Assembly (NCBI RefSeq): GCF_008086165.1 | Contig: NZ_VSKL01000002.1 | Span: 1-64,000 of the forward strand | Source: Algorimicrobium algoritergicola | Lineage (GTDB): Bacteria; Bacteroidota; Bacteroidia; Flavobacteriales; Flavobacteriaceae | Length of the DNA stretch: 64,000 bases | Direction of reading: 5' to 3' | In this document: in pieces, positions 8,262 to 63,003 of the stretch | Numbering within the stretch: the first letter of the stretch is position 1 | Layout of the letters: each line of letters begins with the position of its first letter | The notes under the pieces: generated by a model | What the model saw: only the letters and a program-made list of their open reading frames with translations | Databases searched by the model: none | Told to the model about the DNA's origin: nothing | Made by a program: the position numbers and the translations under genes

Positions 8262-10172
8262 ATGACATTAGATTCAAAAATTCCAGAAGGCAGGCTAGAA
8301 GATAAGTGGAAAAACTATCAAGCAAAATCGCACTTAATCAATCCAGCCAATAAAAAGAAACTCAATATTATGGTTGTGGGTTCTGGATTATCAGGCGCTG
8401 GAGCAGCAGCTACGTTGGCCGAACTTGGGTATCAGGTGCAATGTTTTTGTTATCAGGACTCTGCAAGACGGGCACATTCTGTAGCCGCTCAAGGTGGCAT
8501 AAATGCAGCCAAAAATTACCAGCATGATGGGGATAGTGTTTGGCGTATGTTTCATGATACGTTAAAAGGTGGCGACTTCCGTTCGCGCGAAGCCAACACC
8601 TATCGATTGGCTGAATTATCAGCACCCTTAATAGATCATTTTGTGCAGCAAGGTGTTCCGTTTGCACGCGAGTATGGTGGTGTTTTGGCTAATAGAAGTT
8701 TTGGTGGCGTGCAAGTACAGCGTACGTTTTATGCACGCGGACAAACTGGGCAGCAGCTGGTTTTGGCGGCTTATTCGCAATTATCTAAAATGATTCGCGC
8801 CAAAAAAGTGGACATGCTACCAAGGCATGAAGTATTGGACCTAGTTGTTATTAATGGAAAAGCAAAAGGCGTCGTTGCGCGCGATTTAGAAACTGGTGCT
8901 ATTAAACGATTTGCTGCTGATGCCGTTGTACTAGCCACAGGTGGTTATTCCCGTGTTTTCAGATTGTCTACTTTGGCCATAGGTTGCAACGGAAGTGCTA
9001 TTTGGAAGGCTCATAAACGCGGTGCCTTTTTTGCTGCACCTAGTTTTACACAAATTCATCCCACTGCTTTACCACAAACTAGTAATGCGCAATCAAAATT
9101 GACTTTAATGTCTGAATCCCTTCGTAATGATGGTCGGATTTGGGTGCCTAAAAACAAGGACGATTCTAGAAAGCCTCAAGACATTCTCGAAGAAGAGCGC
9201 GATTATTACCTAGAAAGGCGCTATCCGAGTTTTGGAAATTTAGCACCTAGAGATATTGCTTCGCGAGCAGCAAAAGAACGCATAGATGCTGGTCATGGTG
9301 TTGGCCAATTGAAAAATGCCGTGTATTTAGATTTTAAGCATGCTATTGCAAAAATGGGAAAGGATGCCATTACCGATAAATATGGGAATTTGTTTACCAT
9401 GTATGAAAAAATAACAGGAATTAACGCCTATCATGAGCCGATGAAAATTTCGCCAGCAGCCCATTTTTCCATGGGTGGACTTTGGGTAGATTATGAGTTA
9501 ATGACCACTATTCCGGGTTTATATGCTATAGGTGAATGTAATTATTCCGATCATGGAGCCAATCGCCTGGGCGCGAATTCGCTTCTTCAAACTAGTATTG
9601 ACGGGTATTTTATTTTACCGAATACCATTAATAATTATTTAGAAGGCGAATTACAAGCGGAACATCCTAGCATAGAACATCCTGAATTTGCCAAAGTAGA
9701 GGAGGACGTTCAGAGACAAATTCAAAAAATATTACATATAAATGGCAGTCGAACTTCGGATGATTTTCATCGCGAGTTGGGAAAAGTTATGTGGCAAGAA
9801 TGTGCTATGAGTCGGAATAAAGTGGGATTAGAAAACGCCATTACTCAAATAAAACAAATTAAAGTCGCTTTTTGGAATGATGTCAAAGTTACTGGAAGCG
9901 CAAATGAAATGAATCCTGAATTGGAAAAAGCGCTGCGTTTGGCCGATTTTATGGAGTTAGCCATTCTGATGTGTACAGATGCGCTTCAACGAAACGAATC
10001 TTGTGGCGCTCATTTTCGGGAAGAATACCAAACTGAAGAAGGCGAAGCCAAACGAAATGATGCGGATTATGCCTACGTTTCTGTATGGGAATATCAAGAA
10101 GCAGATTTTAAGCTACATAAAGAAATTTTGGAATTTGAATATATTCAGCCAACGGTAAGAAGTTATAAATAA
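8262..10172 (+). CDS. sdhA: Succinate dehydrogenase / fumarate reductase flavoprotein subunit
   Basis: 636 residues. The FAD-binding glycine motif [20 protein letters not shown] is at residues 37-56, the histidine for covalent FAD in RRAHS (His72), substrate-binding IHPTALP in mid-protein, and the catalytic region SMGGLWVDY ... [11 protein letters not shown] further on. Oxidises succinate to fumarate, or the reverse, in the cytosolic head. From memory it is about 30 residues shorter than the usual flavobacterial SdhA (near 670), and the usual RLGASAL is RLGANSL here, so it may be a second, divergent copy. 7 bp after sdhC, 7 bp before sdhB. Confidence 0.9.
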
Positions 10173-10179
10173 TAACCAG

Positions 10180-10923
10180 ATGAAAGTAACCTTTAAAATA
10201 TGGAGACAAGATCATTCTGATGCTCAAGGATCTCTAAAAGCATATATTGTTGATGGATTATCGGAAGATATGTCCTTTTTAGAAGCCTTGGATTATCTGA
10301 ATGAAACCCTTGTTTTAAAAAATGAAAAAGTCATTGCTTTTGAGTCCGATTGTCGGGAAGGTATTTGCGGACAATGTGGTGTGTTTATTAATGGTAGAGC
10401 ACACGGACCGCATGATCATATAACGACCTGCCAATTGCATATGCGTAGTTTTAAAGATGGGGATACCATTGTTGTAGAACCCTGGCGCGCAGCTGCTTTT
10501 CCGGTTATTAAAGATTTAGTAGTTAATAGAACGGCCTTTGATAGAATTATGGAACAAGGCGCTTTTATAACGGCAAAAACGGGTACTGCCGCCGAAGCTA
10601 ATGCCATTCTCATATCCAAAGATGTGGCGGATTCGGCTATGGATGTGGCTGCTTGCATAGGTTGTGGTGCTTGCGTGGCAACGTGCAAAAATGCATCTGC
10701 TGCCTTATTTACATCTGCAAAAATAAATCACCTCAATAAATTACCGCAAGGTCAACCGGAAGCACATAAACGGTTGTTGGATATGACAGCCCAAATGGAA
10801 TTAGAAAATTTTGGGAGCTGTACGTTTACGGCCGCTTGTGAGGTGGAATGTCCAGCCGAAATTTCTATACGTAGTATTGCAGAAATGAATGCACGCTATA
10901 TAAAGGCGAAATTATTTGGGTAA
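10180..10923 (+). CDS. sdhB: Succinate dehydrogenase / fumarate reductase iron-sulfur subunit
   Basis: 247 residues. Cysteines 58, 63, 66 and 84 (SDCREGICGQCG ... TTC) fit the [2Fe-2S] centre; CIGCGACVATCK (159-169) and GSCTFTAAC ... EVEC (214-224) fit the [4Fe-4S] and [3Fe-4S] centres. It passes electrons from SdhA to the quinone site in SdhC. Last gene of the sdhCAB operon; no clear terminator follows. Confidence 0.92.
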   Translation: MKVTFKIWRQDHSDAQGSLKAYIVDGLSEDMSFLEALDYLNETLVLKNEKVIAFESDCREGICGQCGVFINGRAHGPHDHITTCQLHMRSFKDGDTIVVEPWRAAAFPVIKDLVVNRTAFDRIMEQGAFITAKTGTAAEANAILISKDVADSAMDVAACIGCGACVATCKNASAALFTSAKINHLNKLPQGQPEAHKRLLDMTAQMELENFGSCTFTAACEVECPAEISIRSIAEMNARYIKAKLFG

Positions 10924-11231
10924 AGGACGCGTAAATACAGCGTATTCTCTTATTAACTAAAATACTCTAGTACAGCGGTTTTCTTATTACGTGGTTGTTT
11001 TAAATGATTAGAATTACCGTATCTATTGACAGATGTCTATAAAATCGATATATTAGTCTTTTATTATTAATTTGAGTTTATTTTAAAACCTCTTTACGTG
11101 TATTTGCCTAATAAATTTTATGGTTTAAATTTAAAATCTCTTTGTAGATTATACCATGAAACTTATGATTTTTATCATAGGAAAAGCGCGTTAGAAGCTT
11201 TAACTTATCGCATTAATTTATGATATAATTT
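10924..11231. other. Intergenic region, 308 bp, upstream of usp genes
   Basis: AT-rich spacer. The one structure worth marking is the CRP/FNR-like palindrome at 11164-11179; no hairpin terminator for sdhCAB was found. Confidence 0.5.
11164..11179. promoter_or_regulatory. CRP/FNR-family-like operator upstream of usp genes
   Basis: The perfect palindrome TATGAT-TTTT-ATCATA contains the FNR/CRP-type core TGAT-N4-ATCA. It ends 52 bp before the ATG of the first universal stress gene. In many bacteria Usp genes are controlled by oxygen- or redox-responsive CRP/FNR regulators, so this is a good candidate site; the regulator is not in the window. Confidence 0.5.
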
Positions 11232-12059
11232 ATGAGAAAACACATACTATTACCAACCGATTTTTCTGATAATGCTTGGATTGCAGCTTTATATGCCTTT
11301 AAACTGTATGAGGCGGAAACGTGTACATTTTATTTTTTACATTCGTCTATAATAAAGGGGTCTACTAAATCTAGCATGTCTAGTAAACTAACACGTGTTA
11401 TGACCGAAAATGCTAAAAACGGTCTAGCAGAGGTTAAAGCAAAAGCAGAACAGAATCATGCCAATGCCAACCATCAATTTGAAACTATTTTAAGTGCTTA
11501 TGATCTCAAAGATTCATTAGAATCCATCATAAAAAAGCAAAAAATTGATATGCTTATAATGGGAACCAAAGGCGCCACAAAAGCAGAAGAAATTATTTTC
11601 GGAAGTAATACGGTAAGTATTATTCAAAGTGTGAAGGATTGTCCCGTTTTAGCGATTCCAGATGAATTTAAATTTGAAAAACCAGAAAAGATTGCGTTTC
11701 CAACAGATTTTAATCGCAGCTATGGTGATGAATTGCAGCCATTAAAAGAGTTGGCCAGCCTGTTTGATTCTAAAATTGAAATTGTTCATATTAATAAAGA
11801 TCATGACATTTCAGAAGCACAGGATTACAATTTGGATCAACTTAAAGCATCTTTAAAAAATATTACGCACAATTTTCATTCTATGCCTAAAGAAGGAAAT
11901 AAAGAACGCGGTATAACCGATTTTATAGAGCAATTTGATATTAATATGTTAGTTATGATAAACTATCCACATAGTTTTATTGAAAGCTTTATGAAAGAAC
12001 CTATTATTAAAAAATTAGGCTTTAAATCCAGTATTCCATTTTTAGTTATTCCTGGTTAA
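11232..12059 (+). CDS. Universal stress protein, two Usp domains
   Basis: 275 residues, two UspA-type domains in tandem. The first opens with ILLPTDFSDNAW and keeps the nucleotide-binding signature MGTKGATKAEE-x4-GSNT near residues 110-127; the second (from KIAFPTDFNRSY) lacks that glycine motif and is degenerate. Cytosolic, probably ATP-binding stress factor. A paralog follows 73 bp downstream, and an FNR-like palindrome lies upstream. Confidence 0.88.
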   Translation: MRKHILLPTDFSDNAWIAALYAFKLYEAETCTFYFLHSSIIKGSTKSSMSSKLTRVMTENAKNGLAEVKAKAEQNHANANHQFETILSAYDLKDSLESIIKKQKIDMLIMGTKGATKAEEIIFGSNTVSIIQSVKDCPVLAIPDEFKFEKPEKIAFPTDFNRSYGDELQPLKELASLFDSKIEIVHINKDHDISEAQDYNLDQLKASLKNITHNFHSMPKEGNKERGITDFIEQFDINMLVMINYPHSFIESFMKEPIIKKLGFKSSIPFLVIPG

Positions 12060-12132
12060 AACAGATTTTAATGAACCCATATAAAAAGGTGTCGCTTTAA
12101 TAATACCGACAATCACTTAATGAATTTTACTT

Positions 12133-49621: not shown

Positions 49622-50215
49622 CTAAAGAGCTTGAAACGCTTTGTTTCCGTACATGGTATGCCCCAAAAACCACTGAATCCCAATAATAGTTTTAGCATCG
49701 CGAAATTGATTGTTTTTGACGTGTTTATGGACCTCTATAACGGGCATTTTCACCAATTGAATAGCCTCTTTTTCAGTTGTCATACCGCCACCTTTAAAAA
49801 CTTTATCGGATGAATTCACTTCGGCATAGTAAAGAAAAATGCGTTCAGAACTTCCGACAGGCGAAACAAAAAACGAACTGATAAAGTCTAGCCCGTTTAG
49901 CTTATAACCAATTTCTTCTTCAACCTCCATTTTCACACGGTGTTCTGGTTCCTCATGAGTTTCTATAGAGCCGGCTGTGAGCTCAAGTATCCAGCCAGCC
50001 CGTTCTTTAATAGTGAGATATCTAAATTGCTTGGTAAACAGTAAGGAGTCTGTGTCTTTTTCATACAAAACAATGGCAACGGAATCGCCCCGTTCAAAAC
50101 AAAACCGATCCTCTTCAATGCTGCCTGAATTAAACAGATCATGTTTAATTCTAGCCTTTTTGATTTGGAAGACATGATCAAATACAAGGCGTTCGTGAAG
50201 TAGTCGGTATTTCAT
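49622..50215 (-). CDS. NUDIX hydrolase (ADP-ribose/GDP-mannose pyrophosphatase type), paralog 1
   Basis: 197 residues. The Nudix box lies at 82-104 (GSIETHEEPEHRVKMEVEEEIGY), in which the usual REXXEE reads MEVEEE; the domain before it (VAIVLYEKDTDSLLFTKQFR) is typical of the NudK/ADP-ribose pyrophosphatase branch. Cytosolic. A very similar gene lies at 57388-57966; the two copies bracket the retroelement remnant. In this one the last 15 residues differ. Confidence 0.85.
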   Translation of the reverse strand: MKYRLLHERLVFDHVFQIKKARIKHDLFNSGSIEEDRFCFERGDSVAIVLYEKDTDSLLFTKQFRYLTIKERAGWILELTAGSIETHEEPEHRVKMEVEEEIGYKLNGLDFISSFFVSPVGSSERIFLYYAEVNSSDKVFKGGGMTTEKEAIQLVKMPVIEVHKHVKNNQFRDAKTIIGIQWFLGHTMYGNKAFQAL

Positions 50216-50224
50216 TGGTGGCCT

Positions 50225-50413
50225 TCAGCGTTGGCTATTCATTGGCATTTTAACATATTCTAATGGGATTTTTTCTTGCTCTAATCTCCAGTTGTTTTTG
50301 TTAATTTTATTGTAGATAATCATTTCTATTTCATTCAAATGTAATTGACTATTTACATTGGATACTATTCCATTATCATTTTCAAAGAATTTATCAAAAG
50401 TACTTGCGTTCAT
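50225..50413 (-). pseudogene. Truncated 3' end of an unrecognised gene
   Basis: The reading frame ending at 50225 (NASTFDKFFENDNGIV ... LEYVKMPMNSQR) is cut at about 50410, where an hsdM fragment in the opposite direction begins, so the longer frame to 50509 is a chimera. After its stop comes AGCCAACGCTGAAGG, like the left inverted repeats of the other cassettes; its partner upstream of the gene is lost with the 5' part. Confidence 0.5.
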
Positions 50414-50672
50414 AAGAGCATATGGTACAGAGCTTAAAAGTAACAACACACGTTTGGCTAAAATGAACTTGGCTATACATGGAATAGAAGGTGAAATTAT
50501 AGAAGCCAACAGCTTTTAAACCAATCCGTACAACCTAACAGGAAGGTGCGATTTCGTGATGGCAAATCCACCATTTAATGTCGATAAAATAGATGCCAAA
50601 AATAAGTTTTTAGCGGATAACGATAGACTACCATTTGGGCCACCATTAACAGGAAAAGGCACCATAGAAGAC
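50410..50672 (+). pseudogene. hsdM fragment joined to a DGR target-gene fragment
   Basis: This stretch matches codons about 231-318 of the intact hsdM at 27064 (for example YGTELKSNNTRLAKMNLAIHG, then [15 protein letters not shown]) at roughly 85 percent by eye, including an in-frame stop near 50517. It ends within CACCATAG, a short stretch shared by hsdM and by the target genes (GCCATAG), after which the DUF1566 sequence starts. Looks like an illegitimate junction by micro-homology. Confidence 0.75.
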
Positions 50673-51069
50673 CAAAGCACAGGGTTACAATGTTATAATG
50701 GGGCTTAATAGCTACGGGAGCAACAGGTACTGCATTAGGTACAGGAATAAACAATACAGCTGCTATTATTACAGCGCAAGGTCCAACTGAAACAGATTAT
50801 GCCGCAGGTTTAGCAAAGGCATATATCGGACGCGGTTTTACTGATTGGTTCTTGCCCAGTAAGGATGAATTAAACCAATGTATGTAAATAAAACAGCTGT
50901 TGATGCTACAGCAACTGCTAATGGAGGTGCTATTTTTAATACTTATGCCTTCAGGAGTTCTACAGAGTTCGATCAATCTTTCGCACGGGGGAAGAATTTT
51001 TCCAATGGTATTCCGATCCTCAAGGAAAAGTTGATCGCAAGCGCCATTCGTCCTATTCGCGCTTTTTAG
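50669..51069 (+). pseudogene. Truncated DGR target gene, 3' end with variable region (VR0)
   Basis: Matches the C-terminal part of the target proteins at 51765 and 53522: GATGTALGTGINNTAAIITAQG ... FTDWFLPSKDEL, then a frame break at the MYVNKTAVDATATANGG motif, then a divergent variable end with SSTEFDQSF and a final IRPIRAF. No start codon or N-terminal part. The variable end differs from both intact copies. Confidence 0.75.
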
Positions 51070-51281
51070 TTATTAAAATACATATTTTAAATAATAATCA
51101 AAATACTGATTATAAGCACTTTATGTTTGTTTTTTGATTTTGTCCATGTTTTTGTCCATGTTAAATACCCACTTTTAAGCACCATGTTTGATACTTTTAG
51201 TAAATACTATTTAAATTAATAGGTATCTCTCGAGATTAAAATAATATTTACCAACATACGAACCCAACAAAATATAATTCT

Positions 51282-51752
51282 ATGAAAAAAACAACACTAA
51301 TAGCCTGTCTATTCTTTGCTACACAATTAATGTACTCACAAAAAGCCATTCCAGCCTCCGGAGGCAATGCCACAGGCAGTGGTGGTTCATCCAGTTATAC
51401 TGTTGGGCAATTGGTATATACCACCAATACAGGAAGTGGTACCCTAACCCAAGGTGTGCAACAAAGTATCGAGCTCTTTACCTTAAGTAACCCCGAACTG
51501 ACCACCGTAAATTTAACTGCTGTTACCTATCCTAATCCCACTTCAGATTATGTGGTATTAGCCATAAGCGATGCCAAACTAACAGATTTAAGCTATGCTT
51601 TATTCGATTTACAAGGCAGAGCAGTTGTAAAAGGATCTGTATCTCAAGAACGTAGTAAAATAGGCATGCAGAATTTAGCATCAGGGACGTATATCCTTAA
51701 AGTAAACCAAAACAACCAAGCATTAAAAACGTTTAAAATTATAAAAAAATAA
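51282..51752 (+). CDS. T9SS type A sorting-domain protein, DGR unit 1
   Basis: 156 residues. Signal peptide (LIACLFFATQLMYSQ), a short GGNATGSGGSSSYTVGQ segment with GTLTQGVQQSIE, then a T9SS type A sorting domain (VTYPNPTSDYVVL ... GTYILKVNQNNQALKTFKI). Found in front of the target gene in both complete units; 12 bp gap to it. It may carry the target or act in export (inference). Confidence 0.8.
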   Translation: MKKTTLIACLFFATQLMYSQKAIPASGGNATGSGGSSSYTVGQLVYTTNTGSGTLTQGVQQSIELFTLSNPELTTVNLTAVTYPNPTSDYVVLAISDAKLTDLSYALFDLQGRAVVKGSVSQERSKIGMQNLASGTYILKVNQNNQALKTFKIIKK

Positions 51753-51764
51753 CATTTACCTATT

Positions 51765-52826
51765 ATGAAGAATTTATACACATTTTTAGTAGCAGTATTG
51801 CTAACGGCAACAACCTTTGCCCAAACGCCAGAGAAAATGAGTTACCAAGCGGTTGTAAGAGACAGTGGTGATGCTTTAGTAACCAGCCAAGCAGTAGGCA
51901 TGCAAATAAGCATTTTGCAAACTACAGCTACAGGAACAGCAGTTTACGTAGAAACGCAAACACCAACCACCAATGTTAACGGATTACTGACCTTAGAAAT
52001 AGGAACAGGTGCTGTTGTAAGCGGTGATTTCACGACTATAGATTGGTCTGCAGACAGCTATTTTATAAAAACAGAAACCGATCCAACAGGAGGTGCCAGT
52101 TACACCATTACAGGTACGAGCCAGTTATTAAGTGTGCCGTATGCCTTGCATGCAAAAACGGCTGAAAGCGTAACCGAAACGCAAACTTTGGAAGATGTTG
52201 CAACTTTAGGAAACCTAGCAAATACACAATTAAAAAACGTAACCGACCCAACCGATGCTCAAGATGCAACAACTAAAGCTTATGTAGATAATTTAATAGC
52301 AACACTAGAAGCTAGAATTACAACTTTAGAGACACAACCAGCAACAGTAGGCGACTTTAGAGATGGTGGCGTAGTATTTTGGGTAGACCCAACAGATAAT
52401 AGGCATGGGTTAGTTTGTGCTATTCAAGACCAAGGTGGAGGGATAAAATGGTATAACGAGGCTTACATAGCTACGGGAGCAACAGGTACTGCAATAGGTA
52501 CCGGAACAACAAATACAGCAACCATAATTTCAGCACAAGGTGCAGTAGAAACTAATTACGCAGCAGGTTTGGCAAAAGCCTATACGGGTGGTGGTTTTAA
52601 CGATTGGTTTTTACCGAGTAAAGATGAGTTGAATGAAATGTACCTAAATAATGCAGCTGTAAATGCTACAGCAACCGCAAATGCAGGTGCTATTTTTTAT
52701 GGTTACTACTGGAGTTCTACGGAGGGCGATAGCAATAGCGCGTGGGAACAAAATTTCGGCAGTGGTAATCAGGGCACCAACAATAAGGGCTTCGCAACCA
52801 GTGTGCGTGCTGTTCGGGCTTTTTAA
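51765..52826 (+). CDS. DGR target protein 1: secreted protein with DUF1566/Lcl C-terminus
   Basis: 353 residues. Signal peptide ending TATTFAQ; conserved domain EKMSYQAVVRDSG ... LLSVPYALHAKTAES (25-140), a coiled stretch (NLIATLEARITTLE), then a DUF1566/Lcl domain (GDFRDGGVVFWVD ... NDWFLPSKDELNEMYLN) whose end is hypervariable: YYWSSTEGDSNSAWEQNF and a final SVRAVRAF. C-type-lectin-like folds of this kind are the classical targets of diversity-generating retroelements; the variable surface presumably binds a ligand outside the cell. Confidence 0.82.
   Translation: MKNLYTFLVAVLLTATTFAQTPEKMSYQAVVRDSGDALVTSQAVGMQISILQTTATGTAVYVETQTPTTNVNGLLTLEIGTGAVVSGDFTTIDWSADSYFIKTETDPTGGASYTITGTSQLLSVPYALHAKTAESVTETQTLEDVATLGNLANTQLKNVTDPTDAQDATTKAYVDNLIATLEARITTLETQPATVGDFRDGGVVFWVDPTDNRHGLVCAIQDQGGGIKWYNEAYIATGATGTAIGTGTTNTATIISAQGAVETNYAAGLAKAYTGGGFNDWFLPSKDELNEMYLNNAAVNATATANAGAIFYGYYWSSTEGDSNSAWEQNFGSGNQGTNNKGFATSVRAVRAF
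52698..52823 (+). other. Variable region VR1 of target 1
   Basis: Compared with VR2, invariant words TGGAGTTCTACGGAG, GGTAAT, AAGGGC and GTGCGTGC are separated by codons that differ in positions 1 and 2 but keep the third base (GGC/GTC, AGC/GCC, AGC/CTC, GGC/ACC, AAC/GGC, ACC/CTC). This is what adenine-directed mutagenesis of AAC/AAT codons gives. A TTAAAATA-CA-TATTTTAA-type inverted repeat follows the stop. Confidence 0.75.
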
Positions 52827-53038
52827 TTATTAAAATACATATTTTAAACAATAATCAAAATAGTGATTATGAGCATTTTATGTTTGTTTTTTAATTTTGT
52901 CCATGTTTTTGTCCATGTTAAATACCCACTTTTAAGCACCATGTTTGATACTTTTAGTAAATACTATTTAAATTAATAGGTATCTCTCGATATTAAAATA
53001 ATATTTACCAACATACGAACCTAACAAAATATAATTCT

Positions 53039-53509
53039 ATGAAAAAAACAATACTAATAGCCTGTCTATTCTTTGCTACACAATTAATGTACTCACAAAA
53101 AGCCATTCCAGCCTCCGGAGGCAATGCCACAGGCAGTGGTGGTTCATTCAGTTATACTGTTGGGCAATTGGTATATACCACCAATACAGGAAGTGGTACC
53201 CTAACCCAAGGTGTGCAACAAAGTATCGAACTTTTTACCTTAAGTAACCTCGAACTGTCCACCGTAAATTTAACTGCTGTTACCTATCCTAATCCTACAT
53301 CAGATTATGTGGTATTAGCCATAAGCGATGCCAAACTAACAGATTTAAGCTATGCTTTATTCGATTTACAAGGCAGAGTAGTTGTAAAAGGATCTGTATC
53401 TCAAGAACGTAGTAAAATAAGCATGGAAAATTTAGCATCAGGTACTTACATTCTTAAGGTAAGCCAAAACAACCAAGCATTAAAAACATTTAAAATTATA
53501 AAAAAATAA
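53039..53509 (+). CDS. T9SS type A sorting-domain protein, DGR unit 2
   Basis: 156 residues, nearly identical to the protein at 51282 (few substitutions such as FSYTVG for SSYTVG and ISMENLA for IGMQNLA). The unit is displaced by exactly 1757 bp from unit 1, including about 215 bp upstream with the direct repeat TTTTGTCCATG, so the pair arose by a recent tandem duplication. Confidence 0.8.
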   Translation: MKKTILIACLFFATQLMYSQKAIPASGGNATGSGGSFSYTVGQLVYTTNTGSGTLTQGVQQSIELFTLSNLELSTVNLTAVTYPNPTSDYVVLAISDAKLTDLSYALFDLQGRVVVKGSVSQERSKISMENLASGTYILKVSQNNQALKTFKIIKK

Positions 53510-53521
53510 CATTAACCTATT

Positions 53522-54832
53522 ATGAAGAATTTATACACCTTTTTAGCAGCAGTATTGCTAACGGCAACAACCTTTGCCCAAACGCCAGAGAAAATGAGCT
53601 ACCAAGCGGTAGTAAGAGACAGTGGCGGTAATTTATTAACCAACCAAGCCGTAGGGATTCAAATAAGTATACTACAAACTACAGCAACGGGAACAGCGGT
53701 TTATGTAGAAACCCAAACGGCAACCACTAATGTTAACGGATTAGTAACCATAGAAATAGGTACAGGGACCATTGTAAGTGGCGGTTTTACAACCATAGAT
53801 TGGTCTGCTTCTAGCTACTTTATAAAAACAGAAACTGATCCATCCGGCGGTTCCAACTATACAATTACAGGTACTAGCCAGTTGTTGAGTGTGCCTTATG
53901 CATTGCATGCTAAAACAGTAGAAAACGGAATTCCTACAGGAGGCCTTGAAGGGCAAGTTTTAACCATAAGCAGTAGTGGTACACCAGTATGGGCAGATCC
54001 TTATGCGGGCACAATTTTTTACGAAGATGCAGATAGCGATGGCTACGGCGATATTAACAGTACGTATGTAGCATTTAGCGCACCTAATGGTTATGTAAGT
54101 AATAATACCGATTGTAATGATACTGATGCTACCATCAATCCAGACACAATTTGGTATTTAGACGCAGATGGCGATAGTTTTGCCATTTCTACAGTAACAC
54201 AATGTGATTCACCAGGAACAGGATATACAACAACAGTAAAACCAGTGGGTGATTGCAATGATGGTGATGCAACAATAAATCCAGGAGTCCCAGAAATAGC
54301 TGGAGACAATATAGATAATAATTGTGATAATCAAATAGATGAAGCAGAAATTGGTCAGTTCATTGAAGGTGGCGTTGTTTTTTGGGTAGACCCAACAGAT
54401 AATACGCATGGCTTAGTTTGTGCCATAGAAAACCAAAGTACAGGGATACAATGGTATAACGGGTCTTACACAACTACGGGAGCAACAGGTACTGCAATAG
54501 GTACTGGAATAACAAATACAGCAACTATAATTTCAGCACAAGGTGCAGTAGAAACTAATTACGCAGCAGGTTTGGCAAAAGCCTATACGGGTGGTGGTTT
54601 TAACGATTGGTTTTTACCGAGTAAAGATGAGTTGAATGAAATGTACCTAAATGAAGCAGCTATAAATGCTTCAGCAACGGCTAATGGAGGTGCTAATTTT
54701 TCTTCTTATTACTTCTGGAGTTCTACGGAGGTCGATGCCAGTCTCGTGTGGAGACAGGATTTCACCAATGGTAATCTGGGCAGCGGCTTTAAGGGCAACA
54801 CACTCGCTGTGCGTGCAGTTCGAGCTTTTTAG
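53522..54832 (+). CDS. DGR target protein 2: DUF1566/Lcl C-terminus with MopE-like calcium-binding repeats
   Basis: 436 residues. Same signal peptide and N-terminal domain as target 1; in the middle a different segment with Asp-rich metal-binding motifs (DADSDGYGD, DCNDTDATINP, DADGDSF, DCNDGDATINP, DNIDNNCDNQIDE), then the DUF1566/Lcl domain and the variable end FWSSTEVDASLVWRQDF ... AVRAVRAF. The mid-part replaces the coiled stretch of target 1, showing modular exchange between a constant signal/N-domain and a constant display domain. Followed by a hairpin and the avd remnant. Confidence 0.82.
   Translation: MKNLYTFLAAVLLTATTFAQTPEKMSYQAVVRDSGGNLLTNQAVGIQISILQTTATGTAVYVETQTATTNVNGLVTIEIGTGTIVSGGFTTIDWSASSYFIKTETDPSGGSNYTITGTSQLLSVPYALHAKTVENGIPTGGLEGQVLTISSSGTPVWADPYAGTIFYEDADSDGYGDINSTYVAFSAPNGYVSNNTDCNDTDATINPDTIWYLDADGDSFAISTVTQCDSPGTGYTTTVKPVGDCNDGDATINPGVPEIAGDNIDNNCDNQIDEAEIGQFIEGGVVFWVDPTDNTHGLVCAIENQSTGIQWYNGSYTTTGATGTAIGTGITNTATIISAQGAVETNYAAGLAKAYTGGGFNDWFLPSKDELNEMYLNEAAINASATANGGANFSSYYFWSSTEVDASLVWRQDFTNGNLGSGFKGNTLAVRAVRAF
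54696..54829 (+). other. Variable region VR2 of target 2
   Basis: Aligned with VR1 codon by codon after TGGAGTTCTACGGAG. Substitutions are almost only in first and second codon positions at sites that read NNC or NNT in both copies. Sixteen bases after the stop a hairpin CCGC-GTAA-GCGG follows, like the hairpins that lie just past the homing site in known DGRs. Confidence 0.75.
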
Positions 54833-54847
54833 TTATTTATAATAGTA

Positions 54848-54859
54848 CCGCGTAAGCGG
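54848..54859 (+). promoter_or_regulatory. Hairpin with GTAA tetraloop after VR2
   Basis: CCGC-GTAA-GCGG, a 4-bp stem with a four-base loop, then ACGGTTTTTATTTTTT. It could be the DGR target hairpin needed for homing or a small terminator; position right after the variable region favours the first or both. Confidence 0.45.
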
Positions 54860-54879
54860 ACGGTTTTTATTTTTTAAAA

Positions 54880-55107
54880 ATGGCACTACATACGGAGTTA
54901 CCGGTTTACAGAGATACTTATAAACTAGTATTATAAATTTATATATGCACCAAAAATTTCCCTAAAGAATACAAGTATAGTTTGGGTAGCGATATGGAGC
55001 GCGATGTATTGGTGCTAATGCGCTGTATTTACAGTGCTAACAGAGCGCAAGAAAAAACAGCATTTTTAAATGAGTTTTTAAATAATTCTGAAATTAAAAT
55101 AGTAAAT
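54880..55107 (+). pseudogene. avd: avd (DGR accessory variability determinant) remnant
   Basis: From ATG 54880 the frame reads ALHTELPVYRDTYKLVL, a stop (TAA at 54934), then IYICTKNFPKEYKYSLGSDM and ERDVLVLMRCIYSANRAQEK, TAFLNEFLNN, the beginning of a Bacteroidota-type Avd (four-helix bundle) protein. Full Avd is about 120 residues and assists the DGR reverse transcriptase; here one nonsense codon is present and the C-terminal 45 or so residues are missing. After about 75 codons the frame runs directly into the start of a third target gene. Confidence 0.75.
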
Positions 55108-55572
55108 ATGAAAAAGATATACACCTTTTTAGCAGCCATATTGCTAACAGCAACCACCTTTGCCCAAACGCCAGAGAAAATGAGCTACCAAGCGGTTGTA
55201 AGAGACAGTGGTGATGCATTAGTGACTAATCAAGCCGTAGGCATGCAAATAAGTATTTTGCAAACTACAGCAACAGGAACAGCAGTTTATGTAGAAACCC
55301 AAACGCCAACCTCTAACGTTAACGGATTAGTGACTGTAGAAATAGGCACAGGATCTGTTGTAAGTGGCCATTTCACGACCATAGATTGGGCTGCAGACAG
55401 CTACTTTATAAAAACAGAAACCGATCCAACTGGAGCTGCCAGTTACACTATTATAGGTATGAGCCAGTTATTAAGTGTGCCTTATGCGTTACATGCAAAA
55501 ACGGCTGAAAGTGTCACAAACGATTTGGTAGACGATGCAGATGCTAACCCTACAAACGAATTGCAAACATAG
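55108..55572 (+). pseudogene. Third DGR target gene copy, N-terminal part only
   Basis: 154 residues from ATG 55108: signal peptide and N-terminal domain as in targets 1 and 2 (EKMSYQAVVRDSGDALVTNQ ... LLSVPYALHAKTAES), then DDADANPTNELQT and a stop. The normal continuation would be a DUF1566 region; instead unrelated fragments follow. A single in-frame reading joins it to the avd remnant upstream, so the deletion took out the template repeat and RT area if these were ever there. Confidence 0.7.
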
Positions 55573-56360: not shown

Positions 56361-56626
56361 TTACAGTCGTTTTTTAATACCCATTATCTGGTGTAAAATT
56401 CTAACAGTTTCTACAACTTCATTTTCCACGTTTCTGTAAAAAAATCAGATGCGATTTGATTTTAGTTACTCGATAGTTTTTTAGAGTTTGTTCTACGGAT
56501 TTTCCAGTCAGATAATGCGTTACATCTGTCGGCTTGTTCTGTAGAGCATTTGTTAAGCGTATAAATCCATATTTTGTCTAAATCCTCAATCGCTTGTTTA
56601 CTTATTCGGTATGGCTGTTTACTCAA
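56361..56626 (-). pseudogene. ParE-type toxin remnant
   Basis: Minus-strand pieces PYRISKQAIEDLDKIWIYTLN, then (other frame) YRVTKIKSHLIF and ENEVVETVRILHQIMGIKKRL with stop at 56361 are the recognisable blocks of RelE/ParE toxins. Between them at least two frame changes and a missing segment of about 20 codons are present, so no active toxin is made. It overlaps the end of the antitoxin gene by a few bases, as in intact parDE operons. Confidence 0.75.
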
Positions 56627-56862
56627 AAGTGATTGCGATGTAATTCAGTCCGATTTTGTTTTGGGTCAAAATTTTCAATAAAACCACTATTTTCTCCGAC
56701 TTCGAGAGCTTTAATTAAGTCTTTTTCTTTTTTTTCGCATTCCAGCAAACGTAATGCAGAACGAATAACTTCGCTTACCGAACCATATCTACCTGAATTT
56801 ACGTCCTCTCTGATAAAATCCTCAAAATGATTTCCGAGTGATATTGATGTGTTTTTTCCCAT
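56623..56862 (-). CDS. ParD-type antitoxin
   Basis: 79 residues from ATG 56862 (MGKNTSISLGNHFEDFIRED), preferred over the longer reading from 56892, which adds ten residues without family support. A ribbon-helix-helix start (TSISLGNHFEDFI) and GRYGSVSEVIRSALRLLE are the ParD hallmarks, followed by a C-terminal tail that would bind the toxin. Its toxin partner downstream is broken, so the antitoxin is now an orphan. Confidence 0.85.
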   Translation of the reverse strand: MGKNTSISLGNHFEDFIREDVNSGRYGSVSEVIRSALRLLECEKKEKDLIKALEVGENSGFIENFDPKQNRTELHRNHF

Positions 56863-56934
56863 TTTGACTATAATTCCCCTCAAGTATACCAAATCTTGGT
56901 AACGTAGCCAAATGGCACACAGGATAGGGGTTTA

Positions 56935-57387: not shown

Positions 57388-57966
57388 CTATTTAATTTTT
57401 ATACGGTGTTTCCCTAAAAACCACTGAATCCCAATAATAGTTTTAGCATCGCGAACCTGATTATTTTTAAAGAGGATATGAACGTCATTAACGGGCATTT
57501 TTACCAATTGAATATCTTCTTTTTCGGCGATCATACCGCCACCTTTAAAAACTTTATCGGATGAATTTACTTCGGCATAGTAAAGAAAAATGCGTTCAGA
57601 ACTTCCGCCGGGCGAAACAAAAAACGAACTGATAAAGTCCAGTCCATTTACCTGATAACCAATTTCTTCTTCAACTTCCATTTTCACACGCTGCTCTGGG
57701 TCTTCATTACCCTCGAGAGACCCTGCAGTAAGCTCCAGGATCCAACCATCTGATTCCTTAATCGTTGGATAGCGAAATTGTTTGGTAAACAGTAAGGAGT
57801 CTGTGTCTTTTTCATACAAAACAATGGCAACGGAATCGCCCCGTTCAAAACAAAACCGATCCACTTCAATAGTGTCCGAATTAAACAGATCATGTTTTAT
57901 TCTAGCCTTTTTGATTTGGAAGACATTATCATATACAATGCCTTCTTGAAGTAGGTGGTATTTCAT
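57388..57966 (-). CDS. NUDIX hydrolase, paralog 2
   Basis: 192 residues, close homolog of the gene at 49622-50215 (identical runs such as VAIVLYEKDTDSLLFTKQFR and SERIFLYYAEVNSSDKVFKG). Nudix box at 82-104 with the same MEVEEE variant. The C-terminus differs (KHRIKIK). The two copies in the same orientation, 7.8 kb apart, flank the DGR remnant, hsdM fragment and parD cassette. Confidence 0.85.
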   Translation of the reverse strand: MKYHLLQEGIVYDNVFQIKKARIKHDLFNSDTIEVDRFCFERGDSVAIVLYEKDTDSLLFTKQFRYPTIKESDGWILELTAGSLEGNEDPEQRVKMEVEEEIGYQVNGLDFISSFFVSPGGSSERIFLYYAEVNSSDKVFKGGGMIAEKEDIQLVKMPVNDVHILFKNNQVRDAKTIIGIQWFLGKHRIKIK

Positions 57967-62052: not shown

Positions 62053-63003
62053 TTACAGCATTTTGGCTTCATCGTGAAAATTATAGCCATTTAAGAGGTC
62101 ATTTATAGCCATTTTTCGCTTACCTGGTAATTTCAATGCATCAATAAAAATATAACCATCTGTGACGGCCACTTTTAGTGTTTTTTTGCTGGCGATTATT
62201 TGTCCTTTTGAATAGTTATGTTCGGCTATTTCTTTATGAGTTTCGTAAATTTTAATTTCTAATGTTTCTTCATTATTATTTAAATAACACCATGCAGAAG
62301 GATACGGATTTAAACCACGTACCTTATTATGTATAGTTTCTATGGAATCATTCCAATCTATTTTACAATTATCCCGATTTAGTTTGTTGGCTTCTTTTAA
62401 TTCATTGGTATTTGGTTGCGGTGTGGTTTCAACGGTGCCATTTTCAATGCGTTTTAAAGTGTCAATAACTAATTCACTACCTGTATGCATCAACTTATCA
62501 TGTAAGGTGCCTACATGGTCTGTTTCTTCTATGGCAACTGCTTTCTGCATTATCATATCACCTGTATCAATTTTATCATCTATAAAGAAGGTAGAAACAC
62601 CGGTTTCCGTTTCGCCATTTATAATAGCCCAGTTTATTGGTGCAGCACCTCGATAGTTGGGTAATAAGGATGCATGCAAGTTAAAAGTGCCTAAAGCTGG
62701 CATCTGCCAAACGGCTTGCGGTAACATTCTAAATGCTACAACTACTTGAACATGAGCTTGAAGTGCTTGTAGGGTTTCTAAAAAATCAGGATCTTTTAAA
62801 TTGGTAGGTTGTAAAATATGCAAACCTTGCTTTTGTGCGTATTGCTTAACGGCTGACTCGTTAATTTTTCGGCCACGTCCTGCTGGTTTATCAGGAGCGG
62901 TTATTACACCAACTACTTGGTAATTATTGGCAAGTATGGCGTCTAATATGGCAACAGCAAAATCTGGCGTGCCCATAAATACGATGCGTAAGTCGGTTTT
63001 CAT
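62053..63003 (-). CDS. fmt: Methionyl-tRNA formyltransferase
   Basis: 316 residues. Formyl-folate transferase core with Asn108, His110 (FNLHASLLP) and Asp146 (KIDTGDM), the catalytic residues, plus NYRGAAPINWAI; C-terminal OB-like domain (from about 210). Formylates initiator Met-tRNA. The start overlaps the end of recQ by 4 bp. Confidence 0.95.
   Translation of the reverse strand: MKTDLRIVFMGTPDFAVAILDAILANNYQVVGVITAPDKPAGRGRKINESAVKQYAQKQGLHILQPTNLKDPDFLETLQALQAHVQVVVAFRMLPQAVWQMPALGTFNLHASLLPNYRGAAPINWAIINGETETGVSTFFIDDKIDTGDMIMQKAVAIEETDHVGTLHDKLMHTGSELVIDTLKRIENGTVETTPQPNTNELKEANKLNRDNCKIDWNDSIETIHNKVRGLNPYPSAWCYLNNNEETLEIKIYETHKEIAEHNYSKGQIIASKKTLKVAVTDGYIFIDALKLPGKRKMAINDLLNGYNFHDEAKML

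Follow-up and report, generated by a model that had tools for sequence, protein, structure and literature searches.

A probable remnant of a diversity-generating retroelement, with surviving target genes, in Algorimicrobium algoritergicola

Are the variable protein C-termini encoded in a 64,000-nucleotide stretch of the Algorimicrobium algoritergicola genome (Flavobacteriaceae; contig NZ_VSKL01000002.1, positions 1 to 64,000; hereafter the window) still being diversified, or are they what is left of a diversity-generating retroelement (DGR)? In a working DGR, an error-prone reverse transcriptase (RT) together with Avd copies a template repeat (TR) with errors at its adenines, and the resulting cDNA replaces the 3' end of a target gene, the variable region (VR). 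Here the overwritten end would be a C-type-lectin-like Lcl domain. A sequence-only reading of the window had noticed three related C-termini with an avd remnant behind the last intact target, and had left two possibilities: truncation of the element at about 55.1 kb, or an RT and a template acting from elsewhere. Our analysis indicates that the locus is very probably the decayed target end of a DGR that arrived on an island of about 7.7 kb, and the targets look fixed rather than still changing.

Variable regions and their fit to an independent template

Three Lcl_C/DUF1566-type C-termini are indeed present on the forward strand, and both intact targets match the Lcl_C profile. Target 2 (51765..52826, 353 amino acids, ending SVRAVRAF; E=2.7e-13) and target 3 (53522..54832, 436 amino acids, ending AVRAVRAF; E=4e-12) are intact open reading frames (ORFs). 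Target 1 (50669..51069, ending IRPIRAF) is a pseudogene, an Lcl-domain fragment with internal stops, which tblastn aligns with the Lcl domain of target 3 in three pieces. The three targets contain VR1 (about 50947-51066), VR2 (about 52704-52823) and VR3 (about 54710-54829), respectively; the last two lie where they had been placed, except that their earlier starts were slightly early.

The template used for scoring is the 120-base TR (48 A sites, 72 others) of an apparently intact DGR in G192, a genome of another genus of the same family. This element (locus L139, minus strand) has the order target-avd-TR-RT, with a target ORF at 10263-12074, an avd gene without stops at 9848-10207, the template at 9608-9727 and an uninterrupted RT, detected by the RVT_1 profile, at 8368-9579. 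Its own VR differs from its own template at 15 of the 48 A positions and at none of the 72 others. Like the locus studied here, it has the same VR frame and the motif CCGC-GTAA-GCGG behind the VR, and its template agrees with VR2 and VR3 at 70 of the 72 non-A sites each; unlike it, avd, template and RT are intact, and the length of the target ORF differs. A DNA comparison of the loci revealed no T9SS (type IX secretion system) match and no N-terminal target match beside the G192 element.

VR2 mismatches the G192 template at 20/48 A sites and 2/72 others (Fisher p 7e-8), VR3 at 24/48 and 2/72 (p 5.6e-10), and VR1 at 28/48 and 17/72 (Fisher 2e-4). Compared with each other, VR2 and VR3 differ at 27/48 template-A sites and 3/72 other sites, which bears out the earlier remark that constant words alternate with differences at spaced codons. 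The third base of the template's AAC/AAT codons is kept in 15/15 cases in VR2 and again in VR3, and in 11/15 in VR1. By codon position 1, 2 and 3, the VR2-VR3 differences number 11, 16 and 3, as against 11, 7 and 14 in the constant part of the Lcl domain of targets 2 and 3 (p 0.004 vs VR) and 14, 12 and 52 in the N-terminus plus T9SS gene of the two units (p 7e-8 vs VR). Outside the three VRs, the best other template-like site in the window misses 38/72 non-A positions. The adenine-restricted pattern of VR2 and VR3 is, judged from the sequence, the mark of mutagenic retrohoming; both have what defines a DGR target, a 3'-end VR with differences confined to template adenines, and VR1 has it more weakly. 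The template-fit scan covered the window and loci L002, L003, L043-L113 and L134 onward (L001, L004-L042 and L114-L133 were left out), and it dropped sites with more than 30% non-A mismatches, which enriches its list for good fits. The A/non-A table comprises nine VRs, and those needing gaps (the second of L043, L044-L047, L049, the first two of L050, L053 and L054) were left out of it.

Could such C-termini have diverged by ordinary positive selection and recombination between paralogues, with no DGR ever involved? Lcl-type domains are widespread, with 66 tblastn-confirmed stretches, most of which, among the matches listed, have no avd match beside them, and the excess of nonsynonymous over synonymous divergence between VR2 and VR3 (dN 0.36 vs dS 0.13) is also expected under selection. 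(The Lcl-locus comparison lists loci up to L058 as well as any that have an avd or several Lcl matches, L120 and L040-L042 (window copies) being left out; the Lcl alignment holds 45 sequences, two from the window and 43 from 41 of 71 loci.) However, selection is blind to the template A positions of another genus, to which the 27/48 and 3/72 differences conform, and the third base kept in 15/15 AAY codons and the avd remnant directly behind speak against it. We regard this explanation as extremely unlikely.

The target proteins

The Lcl domain of target 3 was modelled with a predicted local distance difference test (pLDDT) value of 95.7 and a predicted template modelling (pTM) score of 0.91. 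The best solved match of the model is 8q4e, the C-terminal domain of Legionella Lcl (E=5.4e-9, TM 0.61/0.73), followed by 4eps (E 9e-4), 8oks_B, the Bdellovibrio Bd2740 C-terminal domain (E=0.085), and C-type lectins (E 0.1 and above). By structure, the variable domain thus has a fold like that of 8q4e and, weakly, that of 8oks; with the Lcl_C profile match, it can be classed as C-type-lectin-like. The N-terminus shows a sub-cut-off similarity (E about 1e-9) to the N-terminal domain of Bdellovibrio mosaic adhesive trimer fibres, and the middle of target 3 carries a MopE-type metal-binding motif (PF11617). The targets are likely surface adhesins, as far as these models and matches indicate.

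Each intact target is preceded by a gene for a 156-amino-acid protein with a T9SS sorting domain, namely unit 1 (51282..51752, forward strand; TIGR04183 E=5.1e-14, PF18962) and unit 2 (53039..53509, forward strand; TIGR04183 E=2.1e-14), which is a tandem duplicate of unit 1 with 95% identity. Profile searches of the target proteins themselves gave no T9SS domain match. The description of the targets as T9SS-linked is therefore partly right, in that it holds for the genes in front of them.

When targets 2 and 3 are compared, dN/dS outside the VR amounts to 0.10 in the N-terminus and 0.6 in the constant Lcl part, and it is 0.2 in the T9SS gene; values below 1 indicate that the ORFs were constrained for at least part of their history. 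Unit against unit, third positions differ in 41/130 codons of the N-terminus, 14/112 of the constant Lcl part and 11/156 of the T9SS gene. Such mosaic divergence would be in line with a DGR origin in which at least one of VR2 and VR3 was written outside this lineage, homologous recombination having brought in or reshuffled whole target units or VR ends once the machinery had gone; the island itself was probably transferred. Under this history, however, the DGR signature stays and only its place shifts, and none of the loci scanned turned out to be a donor carrying these VRs. We give it a minor but real chance.

The avd remnant and a shared breakpoint

Behind VR3, a string match to the VR flanks of relatives marks CCGC-GTAA-GCGG (54848..54859, forward strand) as a putative homing-site hairpin. 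It is followed on the same strand by the avd remnant (54880..55107), which comprises residues 1 to about 76 with one in-frame TAA and has lost its 3' end. The remnant matches NF033474 (E=1.4e-8, profile 1-59 of 104, 35 bits against a cut-off of 80) and PF22296 bAvd (E=5.9e-8, 33.6 bits against a cut-off of 40), scores under both curated cut-offs as expected of a truncated copy, and it is 88% identical to the intact avd of G192 over residues 1-72. The avd remnant reported behind the last intact target is therefore real, and it is all that the locus has of the Avd accessory protein of a complete DGR. It joins without gap the start of target 4 (55108..55572, forward strand, ending with the ORF at 55572), which consists of the N-terminal part only, is fused to the cut avd and shares 84% identity with the N-terminus of target 3 across 130 amino acids.

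A search of 397 family genomes with the avd remnant gave matches at E<=1e-6 in six, the own genome included. In Winogradskyella wichelsiae (L043), the order is T9SS gene-target-cut avd-target; its avd breaks off at the identical point and is connected to the following target just as in the window. The cut avd and the breakpoint common to L043 uphold both the target-avd order and the truncation near 55.1 kb. In L140 (G318) and L141 (G127), from two species of another genus, avd similarity with 98% identity to G192 ends after about 53-55 residues, and the cut avd sits behind a similar VR; a profile search found no RVT_1 match in either genome.

The VR beside the cut avd in L043 differs from VR3 at 29/48 A sites and 8/72 others. 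With a common breakpoint and unlike VRs, the two cannot both be unchanged heirs of one VR, and after the breakpoint formed at least one of them appears to have been rewritten by machinery located elsewhere or exchanged through local recombination. At third positions these copies diverge less within the VR (6/40) than within the flank (37/113; p 0.04), which weakly favours rewriting, and a slowly changing template would give the same picture. The ancestor may have been an array of T9SS gene, target, cut avd and target, with RT and template placed farther down the array or acting in trans, in which VRs would still have been rewritten or exchanged after avd was cut.

Missing machinery in the host genome

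The own assembly comprises 3.54 Mb in 29 contigs and is 99.95% complete. Since the locus lies inside a 680-kb contig, with genes conserved in a congener on either side, a neighbouring RT is not concealed by an assembly gap. A search of this genome with the G192 DGR RT gave nothing at E<=1e-15, and no DGR-type RT was found in the assembly. The same is true of the template repeat: VR-like DNA occurs at E<=0.001 at the three window sites only, a template search at E<=10 adds only short chance-like matches of at most about 34 bases, and a 15-base core without mismatches is found in VR2 and VR3 only.

The single RVT_1 match in the genome is a 550-amino-acid protein (L002:8112-9764; C25, minus strand). 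This RT, at C25:113894, was rejected as the missing DGR enzyme, its best NCBIfam matches being group II and DRT models (below cut-off); it adjoins type I restriction genes (named by eye) and is possibly a defence RT. An intact Avd-like/four-helix ORF lies at C25:48625-48930; it was not accepted as a working avd in trans, scoring 37.5 bits against a cut-off of 80. Matches to the Avd model at E<=1 occur in 6/6 genomes of the genus and 6/14 control genomes, and none is above cut-off.

Among relatives, a G192-like RT at E<=1e-15 is present in 4/397 family genomes. RVT_1 was sought in 12 genomes and matched in seven; of the matches compared with the G192 RT (six of those in G405 and one in G407 were left out), L147 and L158 agree well (49-64%) and L143, L150 and L156 reach only 23-24%. 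RVT_1 gave no match in the genomes of W. wichelsiae, W. pacifica and W. psychrotolerans, which carry related targets. An RT pattern applied to L043-L113 matched twice, both times in very long frames judged not to be DGR RTs, and six exact-peptide patterns, whose reach is limited to close relatives, matched no RT in viral contigs. In L169 (G076) and L170 (G272), the G192-like RT is split over two frames, which may reflect decay or sequencing error, with A-biased template/variable repeat pairs nearby. The search that had been proposed for RT and template thus found none in the own genome and VR DNA in 0/5 congeners, and it did find a complete element in a relative of another genus.

These results lend no support to the proposal that RT and template act from elsewhere in the genome, nor to the view that the targets are still variable. 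Several points do weigh against the reading as a decayed and frozen DGR. The fit of VR1 to the template is poorer (17/72 non-A mismatches), and the intact target ORFs with few non-A changes (2/72 each) imply either a recent loss or rewriting until lately. That the targets are frozen is what we infer, and an RT or template may possibly sit on a replicon missing from the 29-contig assembly. Diversification in trans by such parts, on a plasmid, in a prophage or in an intact structural variant carried by other cells, would agree with the hairpin and the 2/72 non-A mismatches retained by VR3 and with the different VR at the same avd breakpoint in W. wichelsiae; for Thiohalocapsa, targets diversified in trans have been reported, as have structural variants of a single DGR locus that retain an intact RT (PMC10907252). 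Nevertheless, the single RVT_1 match in the own genome is not DGR-like, no template was found in that genome, and the three Winogradskyella genomes with related targets lack any RVT_1 match, so that we consider ongoing diversification improbable.

A possible route of loss in Winogradskyella

Behind the VR of the second target of L043 (10015-10117) and those of L044 (10469 on) and L045 (960 on), the DNA aligns with the post-template DNA of G192, with scores of 72, 77 and 61 (best of 1000 shuffles 32, 31 and 30). The same three sequences score 15, 15 and 16 against the DNA behind the G192 VR, that is, they show no likeness to it, and the local alignment of L043 reaches over the first RT codons. 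A VR followed by post-template DNA is what VR x TR recombination, looping out avd, would leave; the Winogradskyella junctions (the species concerned being W. wichelsiae (L043), W. pacifica and W. psychrotolerans) suggest recombination between the VR and TR direct repeats as a route of DGR loss. In the window, comparison of 44-60 kb with template-side DNA gave best scores of 23 and 30, within the shuffle range.

Compared pairwise, the three Winogradskyella VRs have 2, 6 and 4 differences per 120 bases, and their flanks 0, 3 and 3 per about 345 (Fisher 0.07, 0.01 and 0.08). Changes with A on one side make up 0/2, 4/6 and 4/4 in the VRs, and also 3/3 in the flank; because A-sided changes are frequent in the flank too, past writing and drift are not told apart in these VRs.

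Hairpin, duplications and the age of the variable regions

CCGC-GTAA-GCGG starts 18 bases past the last sense codon at VR3, 33 bases past it in G192, L048, the third VR of L050, L140 and L141, and 303 bases past it in L047. A variant lies behind the L043 VR; the 12-base pattern is absent behind L044, L045, L046, L056 and the second L043 VR, with a similar inverted repeat seen by eye in L056. At L047:10499-10833, in a Winogradskyella genome, several short-repeat copies lie between the VR and a frame-shifted avd. In BPP-1, an inverted repeat behind the VR is reported to be needed for efficient homing, and phage hairpins have stems of 7-10 bp and GRNA loops (PMC3240598); the hairpin found here has a shorter stem, and its loop is GTAA and not GRNA.

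Among the three VRs of the window, the inverted repeat (putative in function) stands behind VR3 only; behind VR1 and VR2, its place is taken by sequence that precedes the following T9SS unit. Because the hairpin is kept only at VR3, the other two VRs may be older copies that can no longer be reached; when the T9SS-target unit duplicated in tandem, they would have been parted from the hairpin and left fixed. In the 167-base constant part, VR1 differs from VR2 and from VR3 at 35 sites each, and VR2 from VR3 at 5. The non-A decay (17/72, 2/72 and 2/72) fits VR1 as the oldest and does not rank VR2 and VR3; possibly VR1 had a different template.

More tentatively, the locus might be seen as an archive of VRs. 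Each tandem duplication of the T9SS-target unit would strip the older copy of its hairpin and so end its overwriting, while the hairpin-side copy would go on being rewritten by machinery elsewhere, even after avd was cut. A ladder of fixed binding variants, with VR1 oldest and VR2/VR3 younger, would have been laid down before the machinery was lost, in Winogradskyella by VR-TR recombination. We think this combined scenario doubtful as a whole.

The island and its neighbourhood

The island is bounded by two NUDIX genes on the minus strand, copy 1 at 49622..50215 (PF00293) and copy 2 at 57388..57966, a direct repeat at a distance of 7751 bases, the copies being 84% identical. The complete congener G003 has only one NUDIX gene between these neighbours, with no target-gene match at this empty site. 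Four congeners have one NUDIX copy each, and the window has two with the remnant between them; VR-avd DNA occurs in 0/5 congeners (G005 being only 88% complete).

The protein encoded at 62056-63003, which we take to be methionyl-tRNA formyltransferase, is 93% identical to its counterpart in G003, 62% to that in W. wichelsiae and 56% to that in G192. Set against the 88% identity of avd to G192, the 56% of this one housekeeping protein favours transfer of the DGR element between genera. The excess over W. wichelsiae is smaller (N-terminus 81-82%, Lcl 70-72%, T9SS gene 70% identical). A chromosomal site common with W. wichelsiae was considered and rejected, as DNA matches are confined to the target block.

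Upstream of target 1 lies a fragment of an N6 DNA methylase gene (50400..50666, forward strand; PF02384 in two pieces, E=1.2e-5 and 0.0082, the second below cut-off), presumably of HsdM type; the methylase piece (50400-50705) continues in frame into the Lcl fragment of target 1. The island also contains a ParD-type antitoxin gene (56623-56892, minus strand; PF03693 E=1e-24), with a possible ParE-like remnant, judged by eye only, beside it.

Known systems and implications

The DGR of Bordetella phage BPP-1 (mtd-avd-TR-brt) is the prototype of these elements. The present locus resembles it in the target-avd order, the C-type-lectin-like variable domain and the hairpin behind the VR, and differs from it in having neither TR nor RT.

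In a survey of the human microbiome, no Pfam domain was commoner among the targets of DGRs than DUF1566 (PMC4159848). Leftover targets with A-biased VRs occur in Treponema denticola isolates without RT and TR, and the authors of that study read them as remnants (PMC4891356); there the phylum and the target are different, and here an avd remnant, a common breakpoint and the island edges are resolved in addition. The DiGReF set includes inactivated DGRs with a decayed RT and preserved VRs, as well as duplicated targets served by one RT (PMC3521204); its inactivated DGRs keep the VR/TR pair, whereas the present assembly has neither TR nor RT left. Leftover targets, inactivated DGRs and targets diversified in trans are thus already published, and the locus described here is a well-resolved further DGR remnant. 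In open-licence papers on DGRs in Flavobacteriaceae and on DGR recombination, deletion or loss, no title or opening of an abstract deals with VR x TR deletion or archived VRs.

The locus offers a resolved case of the death of a DGR, in which the targets outlast RT, template and avd as open frames; the two intact ones may still act at the surface as binding proteins of fixed sequence. A live system is accordingly not proved by an A-biased variable region and a piece of avd. Recombination between VR and TR repeats would be a simple route of loss that can be checked in any DGR collection, and surviving VRs may serve as a record, of retrohoming in their adenine changes and of the time elapsed since in their other changes.

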